Source: Candidatus Solibacter sp. (GTDB taxonomy: Bacteria; Acidobacteriota; Terriglobia; Bryobacterales; Bryobacteraceae). Taken from it: DNA of 49,804 bases. The stretch lies in assembly GCA_025361425.1 (NCBI GenBank), contig JANYAH010000135.1:1-49804 (forward strand). Reading direction: 5' to 3'. A program made the translations under genes and the position numbers. The notes under the pieces were generated by a model. The model was not told the origin of the DNA. It did not search any database and saw nothing but the letters and a program-made list of their open reading frames with translations. This document shows, piece after piece, positions 1 through 14,821 of this stretch (positions within the stretch are counted from its first letter, which is position 1; the number at the start of each line of letters is the position of its first letter).

Positions 1-632
1 CCTATCCGGTTGCCGTTCGAACCCGGCGCACCATGATAGGTCAGCACGATGTGCGTGCCGCTGGCCGTGGCGCTCACCGCTCCCGCCGCTTGATTCGCCG
101 TGATCGCCGCCGCTAGCGCATAGGTGGCGCTCTCCAGTGTGTCGGCGCCGGTCAGACGGTAGTTGAAGTGTTGATCCAACCACGCCAGTTCGATGTAGTC
201 GCCCCCTGTCGGTGTTCCCTGCAAGTCGAACTCTACCCTTGCGTCCGCATACTCGCCCATCGCGGACGCGTAGTTCTTTAACGGAACTTTGTATAGCGTC
301 TCCGTTCCGCCGGATTCTGCCCAGACCCTCAGATACGGCCAGTCTACAGTCGGATAAAGCGTCGAGTCCAAAGGGATGCAATTCGTGCGCACTTCTTCAT
401 AGCTGAGTGTTAGTCCGCTCAAATCGCCATCCGGCAGATTTCGCAACGCCGGATATTCGAACACATTATCCCGATTCCACTCGATCACCACCCAATCGAA
501 TTGTTGTCGCCAGCATCCGGAAACCGTGAACCCCGCTGCCGACGCGCCGCTCAGCGCCGCCACCGCCGACGGCCGTTCAAAGTAGCATTGCATGTCCCGG
601 TCCGGACGCAGTTTGGAAAGTTGTTCCGCCAT
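1..632 (-). CDS. Tail/baseplate-region protein, 5' part only (cut by window edge)
   Basis: An open reading frame reads leftward from ATG at 632 to the window edge without a stop (210 residues seen, beginning MAEQLSKLRPDRDMQCYFER). Its start overlaps the stop of the tail hub gene (TAATG), so it is translationally coupled and belongs to the same phage-like operon. The visible part is rich in short beta-like stretches and aromatic residues, with no catalytic motif that I recognise. Its place after the hub suggests a tail-tip, fibre or receptor-binding component. That is inference from position; the family is not recognised. Confidence 0.7.
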   Translation of the reverse strand, partial: MAEQLSKLRPDRDMQCYFERPSAVAALSGASAAGFTVSGCWRQQFDWVVIEWNRDNVFEYPALRNLPDGDLSGLTLSYEEVRTNCIPLDSTLYPTVDWPYLRVWAESGGTETLYKVPLKNYASAMGEYADARVEFDLQGTPTGGDYIELAWLDQHFNYRLTGADTLESATYALAAAITANQAAGAVSATASGTHIVLTYHGAPGSNGNRI

Positions 633-3600
633 TAGAGTCGAATCAGTACTGTCAGGTTCGCGCCCGGATAGGTCTGTCCCACCGATAGCACCGCCAGCGT
701 CAGCTTCGCGCCCGCCGCCAGCGGTCCCGTGATATTTCCATCCGCGGCTGCCGAGGTAGTAAATCCCGCGGGAATCGATAGCGTACAATATGCCGCGCCA
801 TCCACGTCCACCCGCAGCCGCACCTCCGCATCCGCCACACTTCCCAGCACCGCGAAGACATCTCGCACGGAGTGTGCTGCCTCCACCACTAAAGCGGCAG
901 CCACCCGCTCTTCCACCGCCAGATATCCGTCCACCTGAATCGAGTACTGGCCTCCCGATAGCGTCCGCAGCCCCCGGTCCACCGCGCTCGTCAAGCTGTT
1001 ACTCCTCACCGGACTGTTGCCGCGCCGATTCGTCACGAACAACTCCGCGCTCGCCACCCGCACGTCGGGCAGCGTCACCGCTTGGCTCCAACTCCCGCTG
1101 TACGGGCTCCCGAAGAAGTTCGGCGGAAACGCCGCGATCACCGTCTTACTCCGCAGCGCGTAGACCGCCACTTGCGTGCCATGCGCCGCCGCTCGGCTGG
1201 AGTGCATCCCGCGCGTCACCTGGTATCGTGTTCCGCTGTTTGCAACCGCGTCCACCCGGACCACCTCCGCGTCGATCTGCACGAAACTTCCCGCCGTCGC
1301 ATCCCCTGCCGCGTTCAGTTCCAGTGAGCTGTCTGCGACGCTTACCGCCTGCGCCAGCATCAAGCCGGGCCGCCCGCGCAGTTCGTCCCAGTAATGCATC
1401 GTCAACGTGGCCGCTGAAATAGTGCTCGTGTTCGTCAGCTCTGTAAACGACACTCCGCTCAACTCCACCGTGCCGCCCCGCTGTCCCGTTCCCAACCCGA
1501 AGTAAGGTGTTGGAGGAACATTCACATCGCTTGTGCCGCTGCCGCCGATTTGCCACCGCGTCACCGTGGATAGCTCGGCGGAGCACTCCAGGTCGTTTAC
1601 GTTCGCCGCGCGTCCGCACACCTGCACCGTCTCGCCACCGCGGTTCGGCACCGCGAACTGTACCGGGCTGCTCTTGGCCAATGCTCCAAACTGCCACCCG
1701 GTCTCCGCCACCACGAAGTGGCTGCTCACATCCGGAATCACGGCCCACCCCGGCGTTACCGCGACCGTCGTGCTGGTATTGGCCGAGATCGCCCGCTCCT
1801 GTCCCGCGCCCCGCCCCCTGGTAATGCGCACCATCATGCCGCGGTACCGGTTCTCCGTCATATGCAGTCCGTCGTTTCCTACCGACGCCGCGCCGTGAAT
1901 CGTCGCCGCACTCTCGGGTTGCAGCTCCATCCGCCAATAGAAGTTCGCGTGGTCGAAGTTAGGGTCCAGCGGCGCGATCAACTCCTTGTTCAATCCCGTA
2001 TCTGTGAACTGCGCGGCATTCGCCTGGTTCGAGGCAATCCGGAACAGTTGCGCCGGTGTGCTCCCGCGATAAACGTGGAAGCCCGCCGTCCCTGGCGAAA
2101 AACTCAGACCGTGGATCGTCACGCCGCTGCCGTCGCTCAATGTGATCGCCCGGACAATAAAAGAAAGCAGACTCTCATTCCCCGATCCGTCCACCCCGGC
2201 CACCGCGTAGTAAAGCGTCTGCCCGCCATTCAGCGATCCGCCCGCCCCTGGCGTCGCAGCCAGATTCAGTAACGGGATACCCGGCCCCCCCGCCGCGGCG
2301 ACGGCTGGTGCTACGAACCCCACTCGAAGGTCCGTCTGCATTGAACCATCGTCCGCCGTGGTTACCGATTCCTCGACTCCGAACTGTATCTCGCCCTGCT
2401 CGTCCAGTACATTCCCGGGCAACGGTCGCGGAACGCCGATGCCGGCGCTGCCCTGGCGCCGTCCGCCGCTTGCCGACGTTACTTGTCCGTTGCTATCGGC
2501 ATACCACGAATCGTCATGTATCTGCGCCGTAATGGTGGAGATGCGGTGGTTCGCCCCGGGTGCGATCTTCTGTACCCGGAATGCCTGCCGGTTCAATCCC
2601 TCCTTGAGATACGTCACGGTGATCAAATCTCCCGGCCGGATCCCGAATGCCTTTACACTCGTCTCGAACTCCACGTACGTGTTGCCGCGCACGGAGCGGT
2701 CTAGGTTCAACTTCAATATCCTCGCCGCCTGGTCGAAATTCGGGATGCCCGCCGCCGCCAGTGTCTGCGATACTTCCTGCCCGCTGCGCGACACGTCGTC
2801 GGCGTCTACCAGGGAAAAACTGTCTTGTTGGTATTCGTTTAGCGAATCTTGAAATTCCACCGTGAACCGGTTCGGTGTGTCCGCCATACCGCGCGAATAG
2901 ACGCGAAAACTGGGCTCGCCAGACGGCTTCCGCATAATGCCCGAAAACCCGTTGCTGCCATCGCCGAATTCGTAGCTGGGCCATCCGCCATTCAGGGGTT
3001 GCGCGCTGTTGGACCACACTGCCTTATTCGGCATCTCTAGCGCCAGCGAATTCTCCACCCGCAGTTGCAGTGCGCCGTTCGCCCCATACGTCAACATCAG
3101 TCTCGCCGCGTTGCGAACCCCGCGCACCAAATCGCCCGCGCTCTTGCGCTTCTGCAGAACCAGGTTGCACTGGAATCGCGGCAACTCAATTGCGTTTCCG
3201 AAAAGGTCCAGAGCATTGATCGGCTCATCGCAGTACGCCGCCGCCGCCGCGAAGCTCGCCACTTCTATTTCCCCCAGGCTCCACCCCGCCCGCCGCAGGA
3301 TATCCAGCAGCACCCATGCCGGGTTGCTCGAATACTGCTCGCCGCTGTAGCTCCCGTCCACTCCATAAACCGGTAGCTTTAACCCTTGCACCAGCATCGT
3401 TACCTTGGGCAGACTCTGTCCGTTGTTGATCCGGTTCGGCACCACCACCGAAAGGCACGCCATGCTCCCGTACGGGTCTCCCGCCGGTCGTCCCATTCCA
3501 TCCAGAAAATCGTAGTTGAAGCCCCCGGTTCGCGTGCCCAGCGTCGCCACGTTATACCAGCCGGTTCCCGTCATGTTGGTCCCCGCAACTCCCGCCGGAA

Positions 3601-4516
3601 TCTCCACGTCATTCACCAGAACCTTCAGCACTCCTTGAATCTCTCCTAGACCCAGCAGCACTTCCATGCGCGTCAAGTTGCCGTCATTGCGCGCCAACAC
3701 CACCGGCGGTTGATACCACGCCGTTCCGTAAACCATCGGAACAAAGTCGTTATACCGAGCTTCATTTACCGAGACCGCCGATGTGTGTGCGCTCTTGTCT
3801 CCGTAAGTCCTCACCGAAATCGCTGGAGGTACAAACTCGATTCCGCCGAAGTTCCGGAACATCCCCCGCGCCTCGCAGTTCGTCCGCGTGTAGCCGCATC
3901 CGGCAAACGCCACACTGCCTTCCAATTCCCCCGTTCCGCCCGCCACCCCCGCCGAGTAGCCGCACCGGTAATAGCGTGAGTATTTCCCCCTCGCGCCCCC
4001 ATCCACCGCCTCCGTGCGCTGCGGTCCGTCGCTCGGAAACTCCCACGGGCACCGCCGCTGGATCCGCACTTGCGGCAGCAACAACCGTTGCAGGTTCATG
4101 CGGTTCGTTGCCGTGATGCGGAATGTGGCTTCCAGAATCTCGTCTGGTGGGTTGCAGATCCCCTGGAATAGCACGGACCGCTCCGTCAACGGCGCGCCGT
4201 TCCGTAAATCGTAAAATACCAAACCCGCCGTCAAACGCGCACCCTTCCACCCCGTGGCCCGTTCGATCTGCGAACAGTGCGAGTCCGCGTTCGCCAGCAC
4301 CAGCGAAATCCGCGGCACTCCGTCCACGCCTTGACCGGACGAAGCCTGAAGTTCGAATACATTGTGCCGCAGCACTCTCGCGCTGTAGGCTACTTCTCCC
4401 ACCCGCACCGCGTGCGTACTCCAGTGTTCCGTCTGGCCATCGGGGAGTATGCAGTCAAACAGCAGCAGCGGCGTGTCTGTGACGGCTTGTTCCTTGAGAT
4501 CAAAGATGGTTTGCAT
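632..4516 (-). CDS. Phage-like tail tip hub: gpL-like Fe-S domain fused to gpJ-like hub
   Basis: 1294 residues. The first ~230 resemble the lambda minor tail protein L / DUF2163 (GTA gp13) type. Four cysteines (C156, C184, C207, C214), in contexts RRCPWEF, YRCGYSAG, AGCGYTR and NCEARGMFRNFGG, match the layout of the iron-sulfur-binding C-terminal domain of gpL. Residues ~230-700 look like the gpJ-type host-specificity hub. The rest is a string of beta-sandwich-like modules, including one at ~745-845 with a VYRGSTPAQ motif also found, in variant form, in the head-proximal gene at 8770-9504. It overlaps the upstream gene by 17 bp and the downstream gene by one base, so all are in one operon. 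The family assignment is from pattern recognition; the gpL+gpJ fusion is read directly from the single frame. Confidence 0.8.
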   Translation of the reverse strand: MQTIFDLKEQAVTDTPLLLFDCILPDGQTEHWSTHAVRVGEVAYSARVLRHNVFELQASSGQGVDGVPRISLVLANADSHCSQIERATGWKGARLTAGLVFYDLRNGAPLTERSVLFQGICNPPDEILEATFRITATNRMNLQRLLLPQVRIQRRCPWEFPSDGPQRTEAVDGGARGKYSRYYRCGYSAGVAGGTGELEGSVAFAGCGYTRTNCEARGMFRNFGGIEFVPPAISVRTYGDKSAHTSAVSVNEARYNDFVPMVYGTAWYQPPVVLARNDGNLTRMEVLLGLGEIQGVLKVLVNDVEIPAGVAGTNMTGTGWYNVATLGTRTGGFNYDFLDGMGRPAGDPYGSMACLSVVVPNRINNGQSLPKVTMLVQGLKLPVYGVDGSYSGEQYSSNPAWVLLDILRRAGWSLGEIEVASFAAAAAYCDEPINALDLFGNAIELPRFQCNLVLQKRKSAGDLVRGVRNAARLMLTYGANGALQLRVENSLALEMPNKAVWSNSAQPLNGGWPSYEFGDGSNGFSGIMRKPSGEPSFRVYSRGMADTPNRFTVEFQDSLNEYQQDSFSLVDADDVSRSGQEVSQTLAAAGIPNFDQAARILKLNLDRSVRGNTYVEFETSVKAFGIRPGDLITVTYLKEGLNRQAFRVQKIAPGANHRISTITAQIHDDSWYADSNGQVTSASGGRRQGSAGIGVPRPLPGNVLDEQGEIQFGVEESVTTADDGSMQTDLRVGFVAPAVAAAGGPGIPLLNLAATPGAGGSLNGGQTLYYAVAGVDGSGNESLLSFIVRAITLSDGSGVTIHGLSFSPGTAGFHVYRGSTPAQLFRIASNQANAAQFTDTGLNKELIAPLDPNFDHANFYWRMELQPESAATIHGAASVGNDGLHMTENRYRGMMVRITRGRGAGQERAISANTSTTVAVTPGWAVIPDVSSHFVVAETGWQFGALAKSSPVQFAVPNRGGETVQVCGRAANVNDLECSAELSTVTRWQIGGSGTSDVNVPPTPYFGLGTGQRGGTVELSGVSFTELTNTSTISAATLTMHYWDELRGRPGLMLAQAVSVADSSLELNAAGDATAGSFVQIDAEVVRVDAVANSGTRYQVTRGMHSSRAAAHGTQVAVYALRSKTVIAAFPPNFFGSPYSGSWSQAVTLPDVRVASAELFVTNRRGNSPVRSNSLTSAVDRGLRTLSGGQYSIQVDGYLAVEERVAAALVVEAAHSVRDVFAVLGSVADAEVRLRVDVDGAAYCTLSIPAGFTTSAAADGNITGPLAAGAKLTLAVLSVGQTYPGANLTVLIRL

Positions 4517-5282
4517 GAATAATCTTTACCGTGCAGGAATGGCGATTCACGTCGGTTCCGGTAATCGTCAGCACATCCTCGCCCAGGTGCGCGTCTTCGT
4601 ATACACCGCCGCGCGCGCTGGCTTTGTAGCCCGATGCCGCGGTTTGCGCTTCCACCTGCAGCCCGTACACTTCCACTACATCGCCCGCCCCAATCTCCAT
4701 CGCGAACCGCACCGACGTGGCGCCCGCGTCTCCCCTGCGGGTCCAGGCGATCCGCGTCCAATCGCTGGTCACCACCCGTCCCGCCGTTTCCCTACCTACC
4801 GTCAACCCCACGCTGGTCACCAGCGCCGCCCTGACGTACGCGCTCAGACAGTACTGGTATTCTCCCGGCGCTGCCAGCGTCTGCCCGGCCGCTTGCCCTG
4901 CTTCCCCGTTGTTGCTCAACCGCCACGCTCGCGTGCCGCCCCGCGGATCCGTGATGCCCCCGGTCAGGCTTAATAGCGGATCTTTCTGCCAGGCGGATTG
5001 GTCCAGTTGGTCGCTCCAGGCCAGAAGATTTCCCGCCGGGTCCAGGAACGTGAACCCATTCAGCGTGCCTTCCGCGGCCCCAAAGAACGCTCGCAGCGCC
5101 GCTGCCTCCTCATCGCTCAGGTCCGTGTAGGCCAGCAGCCATTCCGTAATCCCGGCCGCCGGATCCGCCAGTTTGATCGTGCTGCCATCGGCGGCTCGAT
5201 TGACCACCGTCCGCGCCCACCGGTTTTTCTGCACCGGGAATTGGCTCAGCGCACCGCTCCCGAGTTGTGGATATGCCCGCAT
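4500..5282 (-). CDS. Distal-tail (Dit-like) protein with C-terminal carbohydrate-binding-like jelly roll
   Basis: 260 residues. The N-terminal ~95 residues (YPQLGSGALSQFPV ... FTFLDPAGN) are a clear paralogue of the neighbouring 118-residue protein (FPKLKTNAIAQYPV ... FTFTDPWDG). This domain type, DUF2460-like, corresponds to distal tail proteins that ring the tail tube end. Residues ~105-235 resemble a CBM_4_9-like jelly roll common on phage tail proteins (QTLAAPGEYQYCLSAYV, WTRIAWTRRGDAG, VYGLQVEAQTAASGYKAS), suggesting glycan adhesion. It starts 5 bp after the upstream gene and overlaps the hub gene by 17 bp. Function is inferred from similarity patterns and position. Confidence 0.7.
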   Translation of the reverse strand: MRAYPQLGSGALSQFPVQKNRWARTVVNRAADGSTIKLADPAAGITEWLLAYTDLSDEEAAALRAFFGAAEGTLNGFTFLDPAGNLLAWSDQLDQSAWQKDPLLSLTGGITDPRGGTRAWRLSNNGEAGQAAGQTLAAPGEYQYCLSAYVRAALVTSVGLTVGRETAGRVVTSDWTRIAWTRRGDAGATSVRFAMEIGAGDVVEVYGLQVEAQTAASGYKASARGGVYEDAHLGEDVLTITGTDVNRHSCTVKIIHANHL

Positions 5283-5287
5283 GATAA

Positions 5288-5644
5288 TCAGATGTTCTCT
5301 ACCACGGTCAGCCTGGTGCTCCCGCGCATCTCCGCCTCGGTCACGAATGCCACTCCGTCCCCAGCCAAGCTGCAGTTATCGTGGACACTCCCGTCCCATG
5401 GGTCGGTGAACGTGAAACTGCCGAACGCTCCCTGCCTGGCCAAAAAGAACTCCTCGATCGCCGCCAGTTCACCCTCATCCAGTTGGCTCAATTGGATATC
5501 CCACTCCAGCCGCGCAACCGCCGAATCGCGATAACGCTGTTCGCTCCCATCGACGAAACGCACCGTCTGGTTCTGGTACTGCTCGCGTCGAACTACCGGA
5601 TACTGCGCGATCGCGTTGGTTTTCAATTTCGGGAAGGTGGCCAT
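5288..5644 (-). CDS. Distal-tail (Dit-like, DUF2460-type) protein
   Basis: 118 residues forming a single domain: FPKLKTNAIAQYP near the start, DGSEQRYRD at ~33-41, a LDEGELAAIEEFF helix and FGSFTFTDPWDGSVHDNC near the end. This is the compact distal-tail type of Acidobacteria phage regions and resembles GTA gp12. It lies one base after the tape-measure-like gene and just upstream of a longer paralogue, giving the usual order of tape measure, distal tail and hub. It is probably a structural ring at the tail tip. Confidence 0.7.
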   Translation of the reverse strand: MATFPKLKTNAIAQYPVVRREQYQNQTVRFVDGSEQRYRDSAVARLEWDIQLSQLDEGELAAIEEFFLARQGAFGSFTFTDPWDGSVHDNCSLAGDGVAFVTEAEMRGSTRLTVVENI

Positions 5645-5645
5645 A

Positions 5646-6338
5646 TCAAAGCTCGTTTACCACATCGTTGATCGCGTTCATATTTAGCATCGCGTCCCGC
5701 ACTGCCAGCGCAATGTCGTTGCTCCGGTCCATAAAGGAGCGCGCATCCATCGCCTGCACGTTGACCGTGATCTGCGCCGCCGCGCCACTCACCGCGGCCC
5801 TCGAACCCCCGCTTGCCCCGTCTTCTGCGTAGCTCCGCGGCATTCTCACTTGGTCGTATTCCTGACCCGTCACCCGCCCATTGATAGGAACATTCGCACC
5901 CCCGCTTTGCCTCGCTTCTGCATAGCTCCGCGGCATTCCCGTCTGGTCGTATTCCAGACCCGTCACTCGTCCACGGCTCTCCGCTGCCTGGAAATCGATC
6001 GCCGCCGGCAGCGCGTATTTCACCAGCGGCGCAGGCGCCGCCGCAGCTCCCCCGCTAAATAGACTCACCAAACCGCTGATCAACGGTGCCAGCCCGAACC
6101 CGCTCGTCAGCACCGTGGACGCCACCGATCCCAACGTGCTCCCGCTGTCCTTCGACGTTGTCTGCGTCGCAGTCTGCGTCTTGCTCGACGCCACCGGCGT
6201 CGGGTAACCGCTCCGCAGTTCGCTAATCTGCGCGATCACATCGCCCAACATCGCCGTTGCATCCCCAATGGCCGACGTTTGTCGCCCCGATACCGCCAGA
6301 AACTGCCGATATAGCTCGTCTTGTGTTGTGCTCGCCAT
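5646..6338 (-). CDS. Short tape-measure-like tail protein with internal repeat
   Basis: 230 residues. A hydrophobic Gly/Ala segment (VLTSGFGLAPLISGLVSLF, ~76-94) sits in the middle. The C-terminus (VNVQAMDARSFMDRSNDIA then LAVRDAMLN) has the helical form typical of tape-measure C-termini. Between them are two 25-residue repeats (GRVTG-EYDQ--MPRSYAE type) with a 31-residue period. Its position between the tail chaperone and the distal tail proteins is the tape-measure slot. It has an AGAGAGG-like ribosome-binding site (GAGAGAGG, about 6 nt from ATG). At 230 residues it is far shorter than siphophage tape measures and close to the ~220 residues I recall for the RcGTA tape measure. The role is inferred. 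Confidence 0.6.
   Translation of the reverse strand: MASTTQDELYRQFLAVSGRQTSAIGDATAMLGDVIAQISELRSGYPTPVASSKTQTATQTTSKDSGSTLGSVASTVLTSGFGLAPLISGLVSLFSGGAAAAPAPLVKYALPAAIDFQAAESRGRVTGLEYDQTGMPRSYAEARQSGGANVPINGRVTGQEYDQVRMPRSYAEDGASGGSRAAVSGAAAQITVNVQAMDARSFMDRSNDIALAVRDAMLNMNAINDVVNEL
5805..5972 (-). repeat. Two tandem coding repeats, 31-codon period, within the tape-measure-like gene
   Basis: Residues 123-147 and 154-178 of the tape-measure-like protein share GRVTG, EYDQ, MPRSYAE and a trailing SGG at the same spacing, and the DNA is also very similar. The period is 93 bp. It looks like a recent in-frame duplication. Confidence 0.8.
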
Positions 6339-6366: not shown

Positions 6367-7121
6367 TCACATCCCTCGCCGCCCGGCCAGATCCTCCGCC
6401 GCCCATGCCTGTTCCAAAATCAGGAATCCCTCCACCTGCCGCGCGCTCAACTCCCCGAAGTTCATCCCGCCCAGCCGTCGCCGCACCAGGAAGTCCTCCA
6501 CCATCACTTCGCTCTCCGCCGTAATGTAAGACTTGGGGCAGCTCTCGGTTGCCACCGTTTTCCGCGCCCACACCGGTGCCCCTTTGCCGTCCTGTGGCAA
6601 CCCCAGCCAACCGCACCGCCGGCGCACCTCCAGGCCAGATCTCCGGCACGCGTCGCACTCCCAACCGGCCTGGTTGGAAAACTGAAAATGGAAGGCGACT
6701 AGGAGTTTTTTCTTTCTTCTTCGCTCAGCCCTGTCTCTTTGTGGACCGCTGCCAGCGCCTCCCGGAATAGCTCCTCGGGTCCGCTCTCCGCCAGCAACTC
6801 CACGCCCGCGTCACGGCCATCCACCACCAGCCCCAAGATCGCTGTCACGCCCCACGTCACATAGACCCGTTCGATTTCAGCCCGCAGCAGCGCCGCATCC
6901 ATCTTGTCGCCCGAGTCCTCGCTGGCCGTCAGAAACTCCGTACGCCGCGTCAGGTCCCGCACCCGCCGCATCAATTCCACTCGCCGTCCGAACGACATCT
7001 TCGCGATCGTGAATGTTACCCCCGGAACCGCCCGCGATTCCACCACCACTTCGCTGGCGTAGCTGCTCCCCGCAATTCCTTCCGCCACCTGTCGCTTAGC
7101 CGAATGCCACGGAAATTTCAT
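6367..7121 (-). CDS. Tail assembly chaperone long form (G-T type), predicted -1 frameshift product
   Basis: Proposed product of 251 residues. The zero frame is read from 7121 to the heptamer A AAA AAC at 6711-6705, then the -1 frame continues from 6705 to the TGA at 6367. The -1 frame has no stop across the junction. It carries a zinc-binding-like segment just after the junction (WECDAC, then RRRC and ESC further on) and a helical C-terminus with an LSARQVEGFLILEQAW motif. In lambda and many siphophages the G and G-T chaperones are made this way from this operon position, between tail tube and tape measure. The downstream frame lacks a convincing start of its own apart from a GTG at 6627 that would miss the CxxC. 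The frameshift is a prediction from sequence. Confidence 0.72.
6699..7121 (-). CDS. Tail assembly chaperone short form (G type)
   Basis: 140 residues ending ...SEEERKNS at a TAG just after the slippery heptamer. It is mostly helical with a central RRVELMRRVRDLTRRTEFL segment, consistent with the small chaperone that coats the tape measure during tail assembly (compare GTA gp10). It overlaps the tail tube gene by 26 bp. Only a weak GGA-type ribosome-binding site is seen, so translational coupling is likely. Assignment rests on position, size and the frameshift signal. Confidence 0.68.
   Translation of the reverse strand: MKFPWHSAKRQVAEGIAGSSYASEVVVESRAVPGVTFTIAKMSFGRRVELMRRVRDLTRRTEFLTASEDSGDKMDAALLRAEIERVYVTWGVTAILGLVVDGRDAGVELLAESGPEELFREALAAVHKETGLSEEERKNS
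6705..6711 (-). promoter_or_regulatory. Slippery heptamer A AAA AAC for programmed -1 frameshift
   Basis: In the zero frame the minus strand reads AGA AAA AAC TCC TAG. The X XXY YYZ heptamer is in perfect register, six bases before the zero-frame stop. A purine-rich GAAGAAGAAAG run directly upstream could act as the Shine-Dalgarno-like stimulator seen in bacterial frameshift sites. Confidence 0.72.
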
Positions 7122-8268
7122 CGTCCACGGTCCCCTGTGCCCGCGATGCCCGGAAACGCCACTGCAGCCGGTTCTCTCCGTCGTCGAACTCCGGCACTTC
7201 CGGCACCACGCTCTTCAGATAGATCCCCATCAACTGGCCATCGGCCTCGCCCAGTTGGAGCATCACGCTGATCGGCGATTGCTGCCGCGCTGCCTGGTAC
7301 AGCTCCTTCGTGGCATCATCGTCCCGTGTGTAGATGTCGAAAGCCGCCGTCACCGTCCGCTTGCCCGGTGAAATCGCCAGTGCCCCGCACGGTCCGAATT
7401 CCCGGTTCCTCGCGTCCAGTTCATTCTTCACTGCGATCGTCGCTGCCGTGATCGTGCAGAACCGCGATGGCCCCGTCCCCAACCACGCCTGCCCCATATG
7501 TCCTGGCACGATCGAGTAGTCGAACGCCGCTACCGCTGGCTCCTCCGGAAAGCTTTGCAATTGCGCCGCGCCGGCCTCGAAGCTCGCGTTGTCCAGCACG
7601 TCCTTCGCGATGCCGCTGAAACGGAATTCGTGGTAATCCCCATTCACAAGAATCTCCATTAGGTCCACCCCCGCCCCGTGCATCAGCCGCTGCACCGCCG
7701 TCGCAGGGCTCCAGTAGTCGAAGATGCTCACGCTCTTCAGCTCCGTCGCCGGCGCATACGTCACCGTCGCCGTGATCGCCGCTCCCGCCGCCGGCAACAC
7801 CAGAAACCGCGCATTCAGTTGTACTGTTTGCGCATCCACAATCGCCGCCACGAACCGGATCTCGCCCCCCGAGCAGACTGCCTGGCCCGGCGCCAGCCCG
7901 TGCGGCGCTCCGAATCCGAGCTGCCCCGTCACCGTGCTCGATGCCACAATCCCTCCTCCGTACCAGACCGGGCTCCCCCCCATCGCCGCCTCGAACAGCG
8001 GACCGTATCCCGGCCCTGCCGCCGTCTTGTCCCAACTCGTCAAGTACGTCTGCAAGTCGAATGCGGTGCGCCGCCTCACTCCAACCGGCACACCCCCGAA
8101 CGTCCGGCTCCCCGTCTTGTCGCGCCGCGTCCCTGTCTCCACCTGCTGCCGGATCCCCAGCTTGACGGCCGGAATCCGATTCGCGGCCGTGATCGATTCC
8201 ACTTTCCCGTACGCATTCTCCAACGCCGTGTAGAATCGATTCGCGTTGGACGAAATATATGTAGACAT
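7096..8268 (-). CDS. Major tail tube-like protein
   Basis: 390 residues. Early motifs (NRFYTALENAYG, KLGIRQQ, RRDKTGSRTFGG) and the C-terminal half resemble phage tail tube proteins. A central Gly/Ala/Val-rich stretch at ~105-170 resembles an inserted Ig-like domain. It starts one base after the upstream gene and overlaps the chaperone gene by 26 bp, matching the order tube, chaperone, tape measure. It presumably polymerises into the tail tube; the assignment comes from context and general sequence character. Confidence 0.65.
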   Translation of the reverse strand: MSTYISSNANRFYTALENAYGKVESITAANRIPAVKLGIRQQVETGTRRDKTGSRTFGGVPVGVRRRTAFDLQTYLTSWDKTAAGPGYGPLFEAAMGGSPVWYGGGIVASSTVTGQLGFGAPHGLAPGQAVCSGGEIRFVAAIVDAQTVQLNARFLVLPAAGAAITATVTYAPATELKSVSIFDYWSPATAVQRLMHGAGVDLMEILVNGDYHEFRFSGIAKDVLDNASFEAGAAQLQSFPEEPAVAAFDYSIVPGHMGQAWLGTGPSRFCTITAATIAVKNELDARNREFGPCGALAISPGKRTVTAAFDIYTRDDDATKELYQAARQQSPISVMLQLGEADGQLMGIYLKSVVPEVPEFDDGENRLQWRFRASRAQGTVDDEISVAFG

Positions 8269-8269
8269 A

Positions 8270-8770
8270 CTAGTTTCTATTCACTCCGATTTCAAAACTC
8301 ACTTTCGCCATCTGCATGAAATTCTTCCCGCCCTGCTTCACCGGACCGAATGCCACCTCATACCCGCCGCCGAAGAACATCCCGTCGCCCCAATCGCCCC
8401 GGCTCTCATTCAGCATCTGCATCGTCGCGTCCACGTATAGTTCCAGTCGGTCCTGAATTCCCTCCAACCGGTCCTGCGATTGCCGCAACTCGATCGCCAT
8501 CTGCACCCGCCCCGAGAACGCTCGGAATTTCTCCCGCAGTTCGTTCACGATCTTTTCGCAGTACACGTTCACCGCCGGGTACTTCATGCCGAGCGCGCGC
8601 TCCGCCATCTCGGCCGCCACGTTTTGCGCGCGCACCTGTGAAGCTTCCACCAGACCCGCAAATTCCCGTTCCGCCAGTGTCAGCGCCCCTAGGCCCGCAT
8701 TCACTCCGCTCGGCCCCGTCATCCGGTGCAATACCTTGGACGTCACCGCGCTTCCAATTTTGCTTATCAT
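8270..8770 (-). CDS. Head-tail connector / tail terminator-like protein
   Basis: 166 residues from ATG 8770 (MISKIGSAVTSKVLHRMTG), chosen because it overlaps the upstream stop as ATGA. A longer in-frame reading exists but lies inside the upstream gene. The centre is helical (AEREFAGLVEASQVRAQNVA ...) and the C-terminus ends in KVSFEIGV. The slot directly before the tail tube usually encodes the tail terminator or completion protein. The family is not recognised, so the role is positional inference. Confidence 0.55.
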   Translation of the reverse strand: MISKIGSAVTSKVLHRMTGPSGVNAGLGALTLAEREFAGLVEASQVRAQNVAAEMAERALGMKYPAVNVYCEKIVNELREKFRAFSGRVQMAIELRQSQDRLEGIQDRLELYVDATMQMLNESRGDWGDGMFFGGGYEVAFGPVKQGGKNFMQMAKVSFEIGVNRN

Positions 8771-9504
8771 CAGCCCCTCTGTATCGTCCGTGGCACCGCT
8801 AGTCGGTACGTCGGCGCTTGCCCGCTGCCTGCCGGCCGTCCCGTTGTCGTCAACGTGTCCGGCTGCACCCAAGTCTGCCCCGGCCCCAACGTCAACTCAT
8901 TTTGCATCGTCATCGCCGCCGGGCTCGTCCCGCTATAGACGTTCCATCCTTTGACATTCGGTGGCGCCGCCGTCTGTACCGCGAAGGAGCTGCTCGACAC
9001 CCCAATCATTGCCGGTGCCGAACTGCCCCCCTCTTCACCCGCCGCATTTGTCCACGCGATGGCCACGAAGTAGACGCCCTCCGCCAGACCGCCCGCTGAC
9101 GCCTGCGGCGCCGGTGTGGCCGCTCGCTCCACTGCGTCCGCGGCAATTCCCAACCCTCCCCGGATCACTTGGTCGTACGCCCACTTCACCATCTCGTGAT
9201 ATTCGTCCCGCTTCCCCGCATACCGGTCGTTCAGTTGACTGTTGTATGCGTCCCGATACACCATTTCCAGCGTCCGGAAAATATGCCACAGCTTCAACGG
9301 TGGCGTCACCACTACCTGATGGATTGCCGGCGGTGCATTCAGCCGGCCCAGCAGTCCCGCCACCTCTACGCAGAGCTCCTCCTGGGCCAACGCCAGCTTC
9401 CGTGTCACGTCGATGCCCTCGACCGTGGCCACATTCAGTAGCTGCGTGTCATGCCCGCTCAGTTCTTCGATGCTCGCAATCGCGCCGTCCGTCAACAATG
9501 CCAT
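8770..9504 (-). CDS. Connector-like protein with C-terminal beta-sandwich (VYSGTSP) module
   Basis: 244 residues from ATG 9504 (MALLTDGAI), preceded by a GGCGG-type ribosome-binding site. An upstream in-frame ATG at 9555 would run into the preceding gene. The N-terminal ~130 residues are helical (SIEELSGHDTQLLNVATVEG, RKLALAQEELCVEV). Residues ~140-230 form a likely beta sandwich with GWNVYSGTSPAAM, echoing GFHVYRGSTPAQL in the tail hub. Its place downstream of the capsid suggests a head-completion or neck component with a surface-exposed decoration. Function is inferred. Confidence 0.6.
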   Translation of the reverse strand: MALLTDGAIASIEELSGHDTQLLNVATVEGIDVTRKLALAQEELCVEVAGLLGRLNAPPAIHQVVVTPPLKLWHIFRTLEMVYRDAYNSQLNDRYAGKRDEYHEMVKWAYDQVIRGGLGIAADAVERAATPAPQASAGGLAEGVYFVAIAWTNAAGEEGGSSAPAMIGVSSSSFAVQTAAPPNVKGWNVYSGTSPAAMTMQNELTLGPGQTWVQPDTLTTTGRPAGSGQAPTYRLAVPRTIQRG

Positions 9505-9514
9505 CGTCTGCCGC

Positions 9515-9841
9515 CTATTCTTTGGAACTCCGCACATCGCTTCGCAGCCGGTCAAGCTCCATCGTGGATAACACCGTCAACTGGAGCCTCGCTGCCGCCA
9601 CCGCCCGCTCCGCCATTCGGTTGGCCTCCGCCAGCGCGTCGCGATGTGCTTTCGCCTCGTCCTTCGACGCCAGCCGTGCCTGTCCCTCCACCAGCAGCTT
9701 GGCAGCTAGCCGGCGCGGCACCTCCGTCTTTGTCCCGCTCTTGCCTCCGTCCGCCATATCCAGGCTGACCAGCAGCGGAAACTCCTCCGTGATCTTCGTT
9801 TCCATCTCGCGAATCTTTTGGTAATACACCTGTAAATCCAT
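9515..9841 (-). CDS. Small coiled-coil-like protein of the head region
   Basis: 108 residues from ATG 9841 (MDLQVYYQKIREMETKI), preceded by a good AAGGAAGG site; this start is preferred over an upstream in-frame ATG at 9889. It is charged and helical (LLVEGQARLASKDEAKAHRD ... NRMAERAVAAARLQ). It lies between the capsid-side repeat gap and the connector-like gene, 10 bp upstream of the latter. No family recognised. A head decoration or connector accessory role is possible. Confidence 0.55.
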   Translation of the reverse strand: MDLQVYYQKIREMETKITEEFPLLVSLDMADGGKSGTKTEVPRRLAAKLLVEGQARLASKDEAKAHRDALAEANRMAERAVAAARLQLTVLSTMELDRLRSDVRSSKE

Positions 9842-9889
9842 TTGCCTTCCTTTTCTCTCTAGCTCTCGTGTTCCAGCCTTGTCTGCCAT

Positions 9890-10186: not shown

Positions 10187-11098
10187 CTACGTATTCACCT
10201 GCACGCCCGCCGAGTTCCGCAGCACTCCGCAGCCGTACAGCACGTCCACCGTGAACTGCTGCGCCAGTGTGTTCGGCTGGTAGCTCATCACCACCCGCAT
10301 ACCGAAATTGCCCAGCTCCGCGTACTCCGCGATGGCGCCAGTCCCCGGCAGCGGCTGCGGCAGTCGCCGCACCACCAGACCCAAAGCGCTCTTCGTGAAC
10401 GCAATATTGTGCGTCGTCACCGGACCGCTGCCCGTCTTCTGCACGAACTGCGACCGGAACACGAAAAAGTCCTTGATCTTTCCCACCGTCCCGTCGATCA
10501 GCGACCGCAGTCCCGCGTCGCCCGCCGTCTGGAATTCGCTGAATCGCGGAATCTGCCGCCACGCCGAGTACGTAGCCGCGTCCACCACCATGTACTTCTG
10601 CTCGCTCGGCGGTACCTTTGCCAAAAATAGCGCCGTCTCCGCCGCGTCGATGATGGCTTCCGTGATCGCCGTCCCCGGCGTCCCCACCGGAGTGTTCGCC
10701 GTGAACCCCGCGTACAGCGCCAGTAGATCGCTTTCGATCTTCTGCGCGATCGCCGCTACCGCCGGCTCCATGTAGATCCTCAGCAGATCCGGCACCGCCA
10801 GTACCTTCGTTACATCCGGTATCTGGAAGGTCGCTTCCGCGTGCGTGTTCAGCACAATCTGCGCGTTCCCCACGTTCGGATTCTGCGTCTGTACCGTCCC
10901 GCCCTCGGCGATGTTGTTCGCCACCATGGTCGGCGGAATCGGCACGTTCACCGTGTCGCCGGCTTGTGCCAGCACCGGCTCGTAATCGCGGTTCACCAGG
11001 TTCCCCATCACCAGGTTCCCCACCAGCACTGGCAATGCGTCCACCGCCACCAGTTTCACAATCGCGTTCGCGATGTTACTCGACGTAATAGCTGCCAT
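10187..11098 (-). CDS. Major capsid protein, P22-coat-like (HK97 fold)
   Basis: 303 residues with a GGGAGAG ribosome-binding site. Features typical of the P22 coat-type family are an N-terminal helix (IANAIVKLVAVDALPVLVGN), DTVNVPIPPTMVANNIAEGG, an E-loop-like IVLNTHAEATFQIPDVTKV, and EPAVAAIAQKIESDLLALYAG, ending in a beta-rich C-terminus. There is no N-terminal delta/protease region, in keeping with the separate scaffold-like gene upstream. It would form the icosahedral head. Confidence 0.8.
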   Translation of the reverse strand: MAAITSSNIANAIVKLVAVDALPVLVGNLVMGNLVNRDYEPVLAQAGDTVNVPIPPTMVANNIAEGGTVQTQNPNVGNAQIVLNTHAEATFQIPDVTKVLAVPDLLRIYMEPAVAAIAQKIESDLLALYAGFTANTPVGTPGTAITEAIIDAAETALFLAKVPPSEQKYMVVDAATYSAWRQIPRFSEFQTAGDAGLRSLIDGTVGKIKDFFVFRSQFVQKTGSGPVTTHNIAFTKSALGLVVRRLPQPLPGTGAIAEYAELGNFGMRVVMSYQPNTLAQQFTVDVLYGCGVLRNSAGVQVNT

Positions 11099-11173: not shown

Positions 11174-11725
11174 TCACAGCCCCTTCATGGTCTGCGACGC
11201 CACGCGCACGATTTCCTCTCGTACCCGCTGCATTTCCTCGGCGCTCATTCCCGGCCGTATCCGCTCCAGCTCCACCGTCTCCCGGCCTACCACCGGAGCT
11301 TTCAGGCTCGCCGTCCTCCCCGTGCCCCCGGCAATCCGCGCCGGCAGAAACTCCGGATTTTCGTTCACGAAAGCGCTCAGGTACTCCTTCAACGGCGTTT
11401 CGCCGGCCTCGTTGCGGGCTACTAGCCGCCCGTCCTCGGTCCGCACGATCCCGTCCTGCACCGCTCTGAACGCAAGATCGATCTTGCCTACTCCCAAACG
11501 CTGCAGTTCCGCCCGTACCGTCGAGCTCCGCTCTGCTTCCACCGCCATCTTGCGGCTGCGCTTGTTCTCTTCCACCAGTTCGTTTAACCGGCGCTCCAGT
11601 TGCTCCCGGCGCTTCCGCTCCTCTTGCAACTCCGCCTTGTGCGCCGGCTCCGTCTTCGCCTGTTCGTTGTTCACGAACTCCTGTACCGCCTGCCGCACAA
11701 TTGCCTGTATGTCGATGCCTTCCAT
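11174..11725 (-). CDS. Scaffold-like head assembly protein
   Basis: 183 residues from ATG 11725 (MEGIDIQAIVRQAV), chosen for its strong GGGAGGT site five bases upstream. A long charged coiled coil (~20-75, KAELQEERKRREQLERRLNE) is followed by a basic region and a helical C-terminus (MSAEEMQRVREEIVRVA). Position between portal and capsid, plus the coiled-coil character, fits a scaffolding protein. No prohead protease gene accompanies it, which is usual for P22-type coats. Confidence 0.65.
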   Translation of the reverse strand: MEGIDIQAIVRQAVQEFVNNEQAKTEPAHKAELQEERKRREQLERRLNELVEENKRSRKMAVEAERSSTVRAELQRLGVGKIDLAFRAVQDGIVRTEDGRLVARNEAGETPLKEYLSAFVNENPEFLPARIAGGTGRTASLKAPVVGRETVELERIRPGMSAEEMQRVREEIVRVASQTMKGL

Positions 11726-11788
11726 ATACCTCCCATTCTGTTGCTTCCCGTGCGCCGAGCCGGCGCTCTTCACTTCGATCTAACTGTC

Positions 11789-11838: not shown

Positions 11839-13212
11839 CTATCCCGCGTCGATTTCGTCCGCTACCCGGTTCTTGATCTCCTGCCGCGCGTCGCACAAGT
11901 ACTTGAATGCCAGCTTCTTGAATACCTGCTTCTTCAACGTCTCCGATGCGATCCCTAAATCCAGCAGCTTCTTGGCGTCGTCCAGTTCGTTGCTGAAATC
12001 GCCAATGTCGAATTCGTCCATCCCCGATACATCGATCGATACCTCGTCCCGTCGCGCCTCCGCGATCGCCCGCAGCACCTGCTTCATCGAGTCCTTCAGC
12101 ATGTCTCCGTACCCGCGCAATACCTCTTGCGTCACGCCGAAGTCTCTCTGCTTGCTGAGCCCGCTCATCCGCACGTCGCTCGACGTTCCCGCTTGGTTCA
12201 TCAGATAGCAAACACGGTAGATTTCGTCCTTTAACCGGACCAGGTTGTCCGCTGCTATCTGATAAACCTTGCCCTCCGGCTCCGTCCACCCGAATCGGTC
12301 TTCTTTGCCGAGTTGGATGAAGTAGCTCTCTCCCATCACTTGGTTCCATTCCTTATCCGAAAAAATTACCGGACTCGCGAACAGCCCCATCGTCAACGCC
12401 CAGGAAAGCGCGTTGGACTTGTTGAAGTGTTCTAATTGCAGAAGCGCGGCCTTATTCATCAGCCACAGCCCCTCCGACACTTTCATCTCGAATACCGGCA
12501 CCCGGCGCTGCGCGGCTAACCCGTGCCGCCCTTCATCCACCAGCTCTGTCGCCTGTGCCTCGCCCGCTTTACGGAAAACTTGATAGTTCTCGCGGTCGTA
12601 GTATATCCACCGCGTCTCTTTCTCCCACTTCGCATCCGTTACTTTCGATTGCTGCAGGCACGACGTCCGGATTACTACCCACTCCAGCCCACCCGTCTCG
12701 TCGTAGTTCCAATTGATTAGTTCGTCCGCCGAGTATTCACTCAGGTACGCCCGCGATCTCCCGCTCGCGTCCTCTTCCGCCCGCGTTTGCGCCACTCCAC
12801 CCGCCTTCGGGAAATCCACCACCACGAAACTGCTCCCGCACACCATCACTTCCACAAAACGCTGCCGGAAAAATTCGTGCAGGTTCGTCCCCTTCAAATC
12901 GCAGTTGTCCGAAAGCAGGTTATAGAAGCTCTTCGCTCCCGTATCGCTTCCCTCGAACAGTAGCATCGGTTCCCGTCGCATCAGCGTCGCGGCGTACCAG
13001 TCCACAATCGACCCCACGTAGTTCTCGTAGAACACTCGCCGCAGCCGTTCCTCGTATACCTGTCCCGGCTCCTTTTGACGCCGCACCAGGTACTCGCACG
13101 CGTTCAGCCGCAAGTGCTCTCCGCCCGCGTACAGATCCTTGTATTGCTTCCACATCGCCTTCCGCGCGACGTAATCCGGATGCTCCCGGTTGATGTTTTG
13201 CATGTTCTCCAC
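11839..13212 (-). CDS. Phage portal protein (DUF4055-like)
   Basis: 457 residues. Motifs include YLVRRQKEPGQVYEERLRR, VFYENYVGSIVDWYAATLMR and VMVCGSSFVVVDFP in the N-terminal half. A later segment (MNQAGTSSDVRMSGLSKQRD) has the portal-typical serine/glycine-rich turn followed by a helical C-terminus. It starts 3 bp after the large terminase stop, the canonical terminase-portal order. It would form the dodecameric DNA entry ring of the head. The family is recognised from pattern, and the position makes the call strong. Confidence 0.78.
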   Translation of the reverse strand: MENMQNINREHPDYVARKAMWKQYKDLYAGGEHLRLNACEYLVRRQKEPGQVYEERLRRVFYENYVGSIVDWYAATLMRREPMLLFEGSDTGAKSFYNLLSDNCDLKGTNLHEFFRQRFVEVMVCGSSFVVVDFPKAGGVAQTRAEEDASGRSRAYLSEYSADELINWNYDETGGLEWVVIRTSCLQQSKVTDAKWEKETRWIYYDRENYQVFRKAGEAQATELVDEGRHGLAAQRRVPVFEMKVSEGLWLMNKAALLQLEHFNKSNALSWALTMGLFASPVIFSDKEWNQVMGESYFIQLGKEDRFGWTEPEGKVYQIAADNLVRLKDEIYRVCYLMNQAGTSSDVRMSGLSKQRDFGVTQEVLRGYGDMLKDSMKQVLRAIAEARRDEVSIDVSGMDEFDIGDFSNELDDAKKLLDLGIASETLKKQVFKKLAFKYLCDARQEIKNRVADEIDAG

Positions 13213-13215
13213 TCG

Positions 13216-14520
13216 TTAAATACTGAGAAGCGGAAAACACCGCTCCCCGATCTTTCCCCCCGCTCGGCATTCTTGCCACAGCAGGTATCCCAGTGCGTCC
13301 GATAGGTGCGTCCGCAATCGGTCGCGGTCTTTATCGATCTGATTCGTGTCCGCCTTGAAACACACCTGCTCCAGGTCCTTCACCAGCTCCTTGCACCTCG
13401 GATCCACCAGCAGTCCGATCTTCCCCGACGCCGATCTCAGTTGCCGGTTCGTCAGGTTGATTCGCTCCCGCACGCTCGGGTTGGCCCTCGGCGCCCGGTA
13501 CTCCACCGTCATGTTCGCGTGTGCCGCAAAATGTTCGCGCACCATGTCGTAATCCGTTGCCCCCGTTGTCTGCTGCTGGTGCCCCGATGCGTCACCGAAT
13601 ACCAACACCCCGGCATCGTGTCTCGGAAACCGCCGCAGGAACTCCTCGCACGCCTGCGTCGTCGTCCCGTGCCGGATCACGATTTCTCCCAACACCTGCA
13701 CCGTCTCGCCCGCCCGCTGTACAATCAGCGAACTCATCGGATCCACGTTGAAATCCAGCGTCCACAACAATGGCTGGTAGGCGTTCACTCTCACTTCCCG
13801 TATGTGCGCGTTGCGGTCGAATGCCGAGTACACCCGGCCTCCGTCCATGCTCAGGTACGACCCCATTACTTCCTGCTGGTAGAACTTCTCGTCGTAGCTA
13901 TCCTTCAGCCGCTCGTAGAAATCCGCGATCTTTCCCAGCAGGTGCCGGTTTTCAAATGGCTCCGCCAGCACCGTCCCATACCCGGCAACCGGATCTGAAA
14001 TGAACTTCCGGTATACCCAGTCGTATCCCTTCGGCGTCCACACCCCGAATCCGCACAGCCGCGCCGCCTTCGGATCCCGCAGCCGGCCTTCCAGCCGCAG
14101 CCAGGATTCTTCCTGCGTGTACGTCAGCTCGTCCAGCCCGAACCATGCCAGGTTCGTACCCCGCAACCGTTCGAATTCTTCCACCGGCCGGAACAGGATA
14201 CGCGACCGCGTATCCAGCATTACGAACGTGTTCTCGGCCTTGTTATGCTCGTACGGGATGTCATTGCTCGCCAGAATCTCGATGAACGCCGCCTGCGTCG
14301 CATCCCGTAGCATCGGATAAGTCGGCGCTCCCAGAAGCCCCAGCCGCCCTGGATTCATGTAGCTTAGCTTGATTGCCTCGTGACACAGCGCCTGGCTCTT
14401 CCCGCTGCCGATCGGACCGGAAAAGCCCTTGAACCTGTTCTCTAACGCGTGAAACTTCTTCTGGGAAGGTAACGGGTCGTAACTTATGTCTAGGTGCTTG
14501 ATTTGACCGGTTCGACCCAT
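13216..14520 (-). CDS. terL: Phage terminase large subunit (ATPase and nuclease)
   Basis: 434 residues. Walker A SGPIGSGKS at 34-42 and Walker B-like LAWFGLDE at 124-131 (D130/E131) mark the packaging ATPase. The C-terminal RNase H-like nuclease has acidic residues at D256 (LDFNVD), D310 (FGDASG) and D408 (THLSDALGY). All key residues are present, so the enzyme looks functional. It overlaps the small upstream gene by 31 bp and is followed by the portal gene. It would drive DNA packaging into preformed heads. Confidence 0.9.
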   Translation of the reverse strand: MGRTGQIKHLDISYDPLPSQKKFHALENRFKGFSGPIGSGKSQALCHEAIKLSYMNPGRLGLLGAPTYPMLRDATQAAFIEILASNDIPYEHNKAENTFVMLDTRSRILFRPVEEFERLRGTNLAWFGLDELTYTQEESWLRLEGRLRDPKAARLCGFGVWTPKGYDWVYRKFISDPVAGYGTVLAEPFENRHLLGKIADFYERLKDSYDEKFYQQEVMGSYLSMDGGRVYSAFDRNAHIREVRVNAYQPLLWTLDFNVDPMSSLIVQRAGETVQVLGEIVIRHGTTTQACEEFLRRFPRHDAGVLVFGDASGHQQQTTGATDYDMVREHFAAHANMTVEYRAPRANPSVRERINLTNRQLRSASGKIGLLVDPRCKELVKDLEQVCFKADTNQIDKDRDRLRTHLSDALGYLLWQECRAGGKIGERCFPLLSI

Positions 14521-14750
14521 GTAACCTTGATCTCCTTTGTCTCCTCACCGCCGATATCCTTTTCCATCTGCACTAACTTCAGATAGTCCGCCACCGAGGC
14601 TTTGAATTCCTCCGTCTTTAACTTTTCCTCCATCTTCTTGATTACATCGGTGAGTACACCGCTCACCCTTAACTTGTTCCTTACTTCCTCCCAGCGCTCG
14701 CATTCCTGACAGGATTTGGGAGCCTTCTCTTGTTTTTTACCTTTGTTCAC
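14490..14750 (-). CDS. First gene of the cassette; candidate small terminase subunit
   Basis: 86 residues from GTG 14750 (VNKGKKQEKAPKSCQECERW). The start is set by a strong GAGGAG site seven bases upstream, and all longer in-frame starts fall inside an intrinsic terminator. It is very lysine/glutamate-rich, with one CxxC (SCQECERW), a helical middle (ASVADYLKLVQMEKDIGG) and a beta-like tail (EIKVTWVEP). The 31-bp overlap with terL puts it in the small-terminase slot. No helix-turn-helix is obvious, so this role is positional inference. Confidence 0.6.
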   Translation of the reverse strand: MNKGKKQEKAPKSCQECERWEEVRNKLRVSGVLTDVIKKMEEKLKTEEFKASVADYLKLVQMEKDIGGEETKEIKVTWVEPVKSST

Positions 14751-14763
14751 CTTCGTGCTCCTC

Positions 14764-14796
14764 AAAAAAAAAGGCCTCGCGAAAACTCGCGAAGCC
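14764..14796 (-). terminator. Intrinsic terminator abutting the first cassette gene
   Basis: The minus strand reads GGCTTCGCGA, loop GTTT, TCGCGAGGCC, then nine T. This is a 10-bp stem (one G-U) with a perfect T tract. It lies 96 bp after the glycosyltransferase gene and is followed at once by the GAGGAG site of the first phage-like gene, leaving no room for a promoter in between. Confidence 0.88.
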
Positions 14797-14821
14797 AAAC
14801 AACCTTTCCCTGACTCGACAA

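Follow-up and report, generated by a model that had tools for sequence, protein, structure and literature searches.

A programmed -1 ribosomal frameshift of the lambda G/GT type is very probably encoded at the G/T junction of a phage-like gene cluster in Candidatus Solibacter sp., judging from its sequence signal and the conservation of that signal. The cluster lies in a 49,804-nt stretch of contig JANYAH010000135.1 (the window). It recurs across Bryobacteraceae, and its likeliest reading, somewhat better than even, is a domesticated element resembling a gene transfer agent. G/GT frameshifts have long been known. As far as a partial literature search shows, three aspects may be new: a covariation-supported pseudoknot in a G/GT context, unrelated G and T families, and a family-wide short-tape element in Acidobacteriota. 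The junction has the following features, all on the minus strand.

6699..7121 (-), G, putative tail assembly chaperone ORF, 0-frame product of 140 aa; homologues of the ORF in 22 of 41 relatives
6705..6711 (-), slip-site heptamer A AAA AAC, in register with G, read from the sequence; identical in 154 of 156 distinct loci
6700..6704 (-), 5-nt spacer TCCTA, holding the first bases of the 0-frame stop TAG (6701-6699)
6689..6699 (-), pseudoknot stem 1, 5' arm GUCGCCUUCCA; RNAalifold consensus and pair counts, 99 sequences
6652..6663 (-), pseudoknot stem 1, 3' arm UGGGAGUGCGAC; RNAalifold consensus and pair counts, 99 sequences
6667..6673 (-), pseudoknot stem 2, 5' arm CCAGGCC, inside the stem 1 loop; pair counts and coupling
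6630..6636 (-), pseudoknot stem 2, 3' arm GGCCUGG; pair counts and coupling
6367..6705 (-), T extension, -1 frame (112 codons and a stop codon), with Cys codons at 6657-6655, 6648-6646, 6615-6613 and 6540-6538

The 3' end of the G ORF (7121-6699, minus strand) reads GAA GAA AGA AAA AAC TCC TAG. The perfect A AAA AAC heptamer of the original prediction is present in register with G at 6711-6705. Its placement six bases before the stop holds only when counted to the end of the stop codon, since the single codon TCC separates heptamer and stop. The window contains the extended pattern AAAAAACTNNTNGTCGC once, and 0 of 100 shuffles contain it; with a heptamer that is exact and identically placed in 154 of 156 loci, this puts the slip site beyond chance. 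G has no significant match among Pfam, NCBIfam or PDB sequences, to a tail-chaperone family or otherwise, and its one match in PHROGs is insignificant (E 0.23, unknown function). Its putative role as a chaperone is proposed from gene position and the frameshift.

The -1 frame is open across the junction for the predicted 112 codons, from the slip codon at 6705 to a stop at 6367. The CxxC and two further cysteines are also present (T residues 17-20, 31 and 56), but they begin 16 codons past the slip and not right after the junction. As had been anticipated, the downstream frame has no convincing start: the sole start given by the ORF finder is a GTG at 6627, 3' of the CxxC. Conservation of T begins at the slip codon (LxVAFHFQFSNQAGWxCDxCRR), and 12 residues, including C17, C20, C31 and C56, are invariant in 83 aligned homologues. 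On sequence comparison, T is under purifying selection (dN/dS 0.12-0.20 in four close pairs, over the first 312 nt, most of its length). T had no significant match in Pfam, PHROGs, NCBIfam or PDB sequences, and neither T nor the tail tube had a match among 50,697 phage records.

The cysteines of T are spaced C-x2-C-x10-C-x24-C-P, and the four together suggest one metal site. The label Zn-ribbon-like, first attached to this domain, was not borne out: it drew on the four invariant cysteines, and no family or fold matched. A classical zinc ribbon is recognized by two CxxC-type knuckles; T has a single CxxC and lacks the second knuckle. An AlphaFold model of T has a mean pLDDT of 76, with values of 55-73 over most of the Cys region, and matched no PDB or BFVD fold with E <= 0.001. 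Weak T-like Cys motifs (31-32 bits) were seen in two other Acidobacteriota families (L026 and L027). Their regions hold zero cluster genes, and both were set aside.

RNAalifold (19 sequences) placed a hairpin beginning 5 nt past the heptamer. Inspection of the alignment revealed a second helix, in which the hairpin-loop sequence CCAGGCC (6673-6667) pairs with GGCCUGG further downstream (6636-6630). Across 99 sequences, 96.9% of stem 1 cells and 88.0% of stem 2 cells are paired. Both sides have changed in 43 cells, against 12.3 expected from shuffles, and 0 of 500 shuffles reach 43. In a slid control, with the partner moved 1-3 columns, pairing is only 31-45%. A doubly synonymous coupling links Gln and Leu codons: CAG-CTG occurs 98 times, CAA-TTG 16 times and mixed pairs 7 times (Fisher p 1e-13 on raw counts, ignoring relatedness). 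By parsimony there are 22 and 20 changes at the two codon sites and 31 for the pair, so about 11 are coupled. These data support a conserved H-type pseudoknot, predicted from the alignment, 5 nt downstream of the heptamer. This distance falls inside the usual 5-9 nt between slip site and stimulatory structure (PMC7618472). The minimum-energy fold of the window sequence by itself does not pick the pseudoknot, which the program cannot model, and the single-sequence fold of the downstream region is no better than shuffles; support for the pseudoknot was therefore taken from the alignment. No Rfam family was found in the slip-site region. A_AAA_AAC is far less shifty than A_AAA_AAG in E. coli (PMC5009743), and the pseudoknot may compensate for a weak A AAA AAC heptamer. 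Diverged prophage-like copies have a comparable hairpin 3-6 nt downstream, built from different sequence.

A genome search found the G gene in 22 of 41 related genomes, one copy each. All 22 first loci have A AAA AAC in identical register and T in the -1 frame. The wider set of 156 distinct sequences comprises related genomes, viral contigs and named genome contigs. It holds 154 A AAA AAC, one A AAA AAT (L108) and one GAGAAAC; the last (L192:8047) is the sole locus without a slippery run and keeps the -1 arrangement. More divergent copies have A AAA AAT or G GGA AAC, and all fit X XXY YYZ. Codon choice is skewed at the site: AAA makes up 23% of Lys codons in the G and T genes and 110 of 110 at the slip. 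Among Arg codons, those with a final A (CGA, AGA) account for about 21%, and the codon preceding the slip ends in A in all 110 loci, including one in which Arg is replaced by Ala (GCA). The 0-frame stop varies in position, mostly falling immediately or one codon later, with 22-45 codons of read-on in 3 of the 22 first loci. In one relative (L022, G009:C170, about 500-1671), the tail tube gene is seemingly fused in frame with the second half of G via a deletion, which reflects either damage to this copy or an error in assembly.

By the proposed mechanism, the majority of ribosomes would read G and stop at 6699, making a short tail chaperone. A minority would stall at the H-type pseudoknot and move back by one base on A AAA AAC, both tRNAs re-pairing on AAA AAA. 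These ribosomes would read 112 further codons, joining a four-cysteine domain to G in a G-T fusion. As in lambda, G may coat the tape measure and G-T may recruit tail tube subunits; with such roles, the slip would set the G:GT ratio and so control tail assembly. The lambda strategy invoked in the original prediction gains support from the gene order, from recurrence of the junction in related prophage-like clusters and, independently, from the conserved pseudoknot.

Three other accounts of the junction were weighed. Transcriptional slippage on the A6 run, yielding mixed mRNAs with no ribosomal slip, would fit the six A's kept in nearly all loci and is very unlikely. Six A's followed by C are short for polymerase slippage, and a diverged copy has G GGA AAC instead of the A run. 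Conservation extends to the base before the run and to the AAC/AAT codon, as in a tandem-slip heptamer, and a covariation-conserved pseudoknot sits at ribosome spacing. Slightly less probable again is a separate T gene with its own start, or re-initiation past the G stop. G and T do overlap or abut, and a possible GTG, ATG or TTG lies between -30 and +15 codons in 21 of 133 loci. However, 38 of the 133 have zero ATG, GTG or TTG from the upstream -1-frame stop to T residue 15, the first 15 T codons hold no possible start in 125, and the conserved stretch starts at the slip codon. An independent start would also leave the heptamer unexplained. The check suggested at the outset, a comparison of homologous clusters, found the heptamer and the -1 frame both kept and no T start with a ribosome-binding site among the homologues compared. 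Translation of T only as a G-T fusion is thus the reading that the sequences support. A pseudogene or sequencing frameshift dividing one ancestral gene can practically be dismissed: split frames are a common signature of error or decay, but the same junction occurs in more than 150 distinct sequences from many assemblies, and both parts are under purifying selection.

The G/T pair lies directly between the tail tube and tape measure genes in a 15-gene TerL-portal-capsid-tail set on the minus strand, running from 14798 to 632. The other genes of the cluster are listed below.

14490..14798 (-), small ORF 5' of TerL, possible small terminase; position, partly conserved
13216..14520 (-), terminase large subunit; PF03237, phrog_2 E 5e-31
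11839..13212 (-), portal protein; phrog_145 E 3e-53
11174..11773 (-), putative scaffolding protein; position and synteny, no family match
10187..11098 (-), major capsid protein, P22-coat-like; PF11651 E 7.8e-16, phrog_283 E 8.7e-40
9515..9889 (-), unnamed connector-region protein, 124 aa; synteny
8770..9555 (-), head-closure-like protein; phrog_8040 E 2.8e-4
8270..8872 (-), unnamed connector-region protein, 200 aa, cluster-conserved; synteny
7096..8268 (-), tail tube-like protein, 390 aa; phrog_290 (tail) E 1.6e-11, syntenic in relatives
5646..6338 (-), very short tape measure protein, 230 aa; phrog_3779 and RcGTA_tape NF058675 in homologues
5288..5644 (-), DUF2460 distal tail-like protein; PF09343 E 1.5e-13
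4500..5282 (-), second DUF2460-like protein; PF09343 E 6.6e-4
632..4516 (-), J-like tail tip protein, 1294 aa; phrog_31 E 7e-30, PF13550

The genomes examined share the order TerL, portal, capsid, connectors, tube, G/T, tape measure. The exceptions are two incomplete contigs, a few genomes with no match for the small pre-TerL ORF or the gene at 9515, and an insertion in G032. Among tape measure homologues, 12 of 13 match phrog_3779 (tape measure C-terminus) and 2 of 13 match RcGTA_tape NF058675 weakly (best 1.2e-5). The tape measure ORF of the window (5800-5990) contains two copies of a direct repeat, GRVTGxEYDQxxMPRSYAE, absent from most homologues. Several relatives (for example L143:11409-14183) encode, directly after J, a protein of 900-1000 aa with a PF23845 non-contractile tail sheath TIM barrel; the corresponding position of the window falls past the contig end.

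The T profile matches 162 of 200 Bryobacteraceae genomes and 67 of 76 genera, nearly always as a single copy. Matches fall to 106 of 150 genomes in the order; phylum-wide there are 4 among 396, of which two are weak. Most of the relatives with names are MAGs of Bryobacterales, Candidatus Solibacter, Candidatus Sulfopaludibacter and Paludibaculum. The tape measure is 171-230 aa in nearly all members. A conserved, mostly single-copy structural cluster under selection within a bacterial clade is one of the marks by which gene transfer agents are recognized. On balance, the slightly favored reading is an independently arisen gene transfer agent that became fixed in Bryobacteraceae: it would descend from a siphophage by shortening of the tape measure, from about 900-1100 residues to about 200, with a pseudoknot-driven G/GT frameshift and a novel cysteine-bearing T domain kept under selection.

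Second, diverged clusters occur in three genomes (L287-L288 in G516, L289-L290 in G472 and L291-L292 in G450). Most structural genes are visible in two of them (capsid 66-72% identical), and the third contig starts at G/T. They have the same G/T junction, with G GGA AAC in one, and tape measures of 862-1145 aa, and are likely to be prophages akin to the ancestor from which the short-tape element arose. Given these longer tape measures, the family-wide element resembles a siphophage with a cut-down one.

That the frameshift is real and the cluster an ordinary, recurrent Bryobacteraceae prophage is less probable and regarded as rather doubtful. Flanking genes do vary between genera, and the cluster is widespread in viral contig sets. 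Cluster and rpoB trees have 5 of 12 splits in common, and a member from a different family (L162, G032) nests among Bryobacteraceae clusters, with G016; inheritance is therefore not purely vertical. The L162 cluster was possibly acquired by transfer, and about 3.5 kb of additional sequence separates its T from DUF2460. Against a prophage stand the near-ubiquity in the family as a single copy, the correlation of cluster with rpoB distances (Mantel r 0.70, p 5e-5), and the contrast between the 171-230 aa tape measure and those of the related prophage-like clusters. In relatives, the flanking genes that were looked up are for the most part of ordinary chromosomal kinds: of ten neighbor genes scanned, 7 match ordinary families or a tail protein and 3 have no match. 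In the window, no integrase or replication genes were seen adjoining the cluster, and the genes nearest to it have Pfam matches of chromosomal character. ORFs further out are presumably cysS, sucCD, a transhydrogenase, trpD and ppk.

The gene-transfer-agent reading invites comparison with RcGTA of Rhodobacter capsulatus. Both have a compact structural cluster, a DUF2460 distal tail protein, a vertical tendency and a tape measure of about 220 aa (about 216 aa in RcGTA; PMC7296036). The present cluster differs from RcGTA in its P22-coat-like capsid, its terminase and portal families and its host phylum, and shows only weak tape-measure homology (2 of 13 members, best E 1.2e-5). NCBIfam RcGTA models gave no match for the MCP or portal, and TerL matches the PBSX-type phage_term_2 below cut-off. 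Membership in the RcGTA family was rejected on the grounds of capsid, portal and terminase.

As in lambda and its siphophage counterparts, the G/T pair sits between tail tube and tape measure, the -1 slip would occur just before the G stop on an X XXY YYZ heptamer, and T has no start of its own. The heptamer is A AAA AAC here and G GGA AAG in lambda. The cluster further differs from lambda in its covariation-supported pseudoknot, in G and T proteins with no sequence kinship to known families, in the four invariant cysteines of T and in its very short tape measure. The nearest capsids (24-28% identity, among 50,697 phage records) belong to actinophages such as Streptomyces phage Hiyaa and Corynebacterium phage PSonyx. 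These have the same gene order and an annotated G/GT, but their T parts lack the CxxC and their tape measures are longer. Retrovirus and coronavirus frameshifts also combine A AAA AAC, a 5-nt spacer and an H-type pseudoknot, and this heptamer is among the most shifty with mammalian ribosomes (PMC5009743). Here, in contrast, the host is bacterial and the product would serve tail assembly.

The alignment documents, with strong covariation evidence, a predicted pseudoknot-stimulated -1 frameshift in bacterial chromosomes. The G/GT switch appears to have been kept by selection though the tape measure was reduced to about 200 residues; whether the switch really concerns long tail-tube polymerization thereby becomes testable. 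The cluster indicates a likely gene-transfer-agent lineage within a phylum that is among the most abundant in soil. Catalogues of viruses may include this host-borne cluster by mistake, and many "viral" soil contigs may be host-encoded. In IMG/VR, at least 523 viral-contig stretches encode the T domain (L057-L136), many on contigs of about 16-17 kb that look as if cut out of chromosomes.
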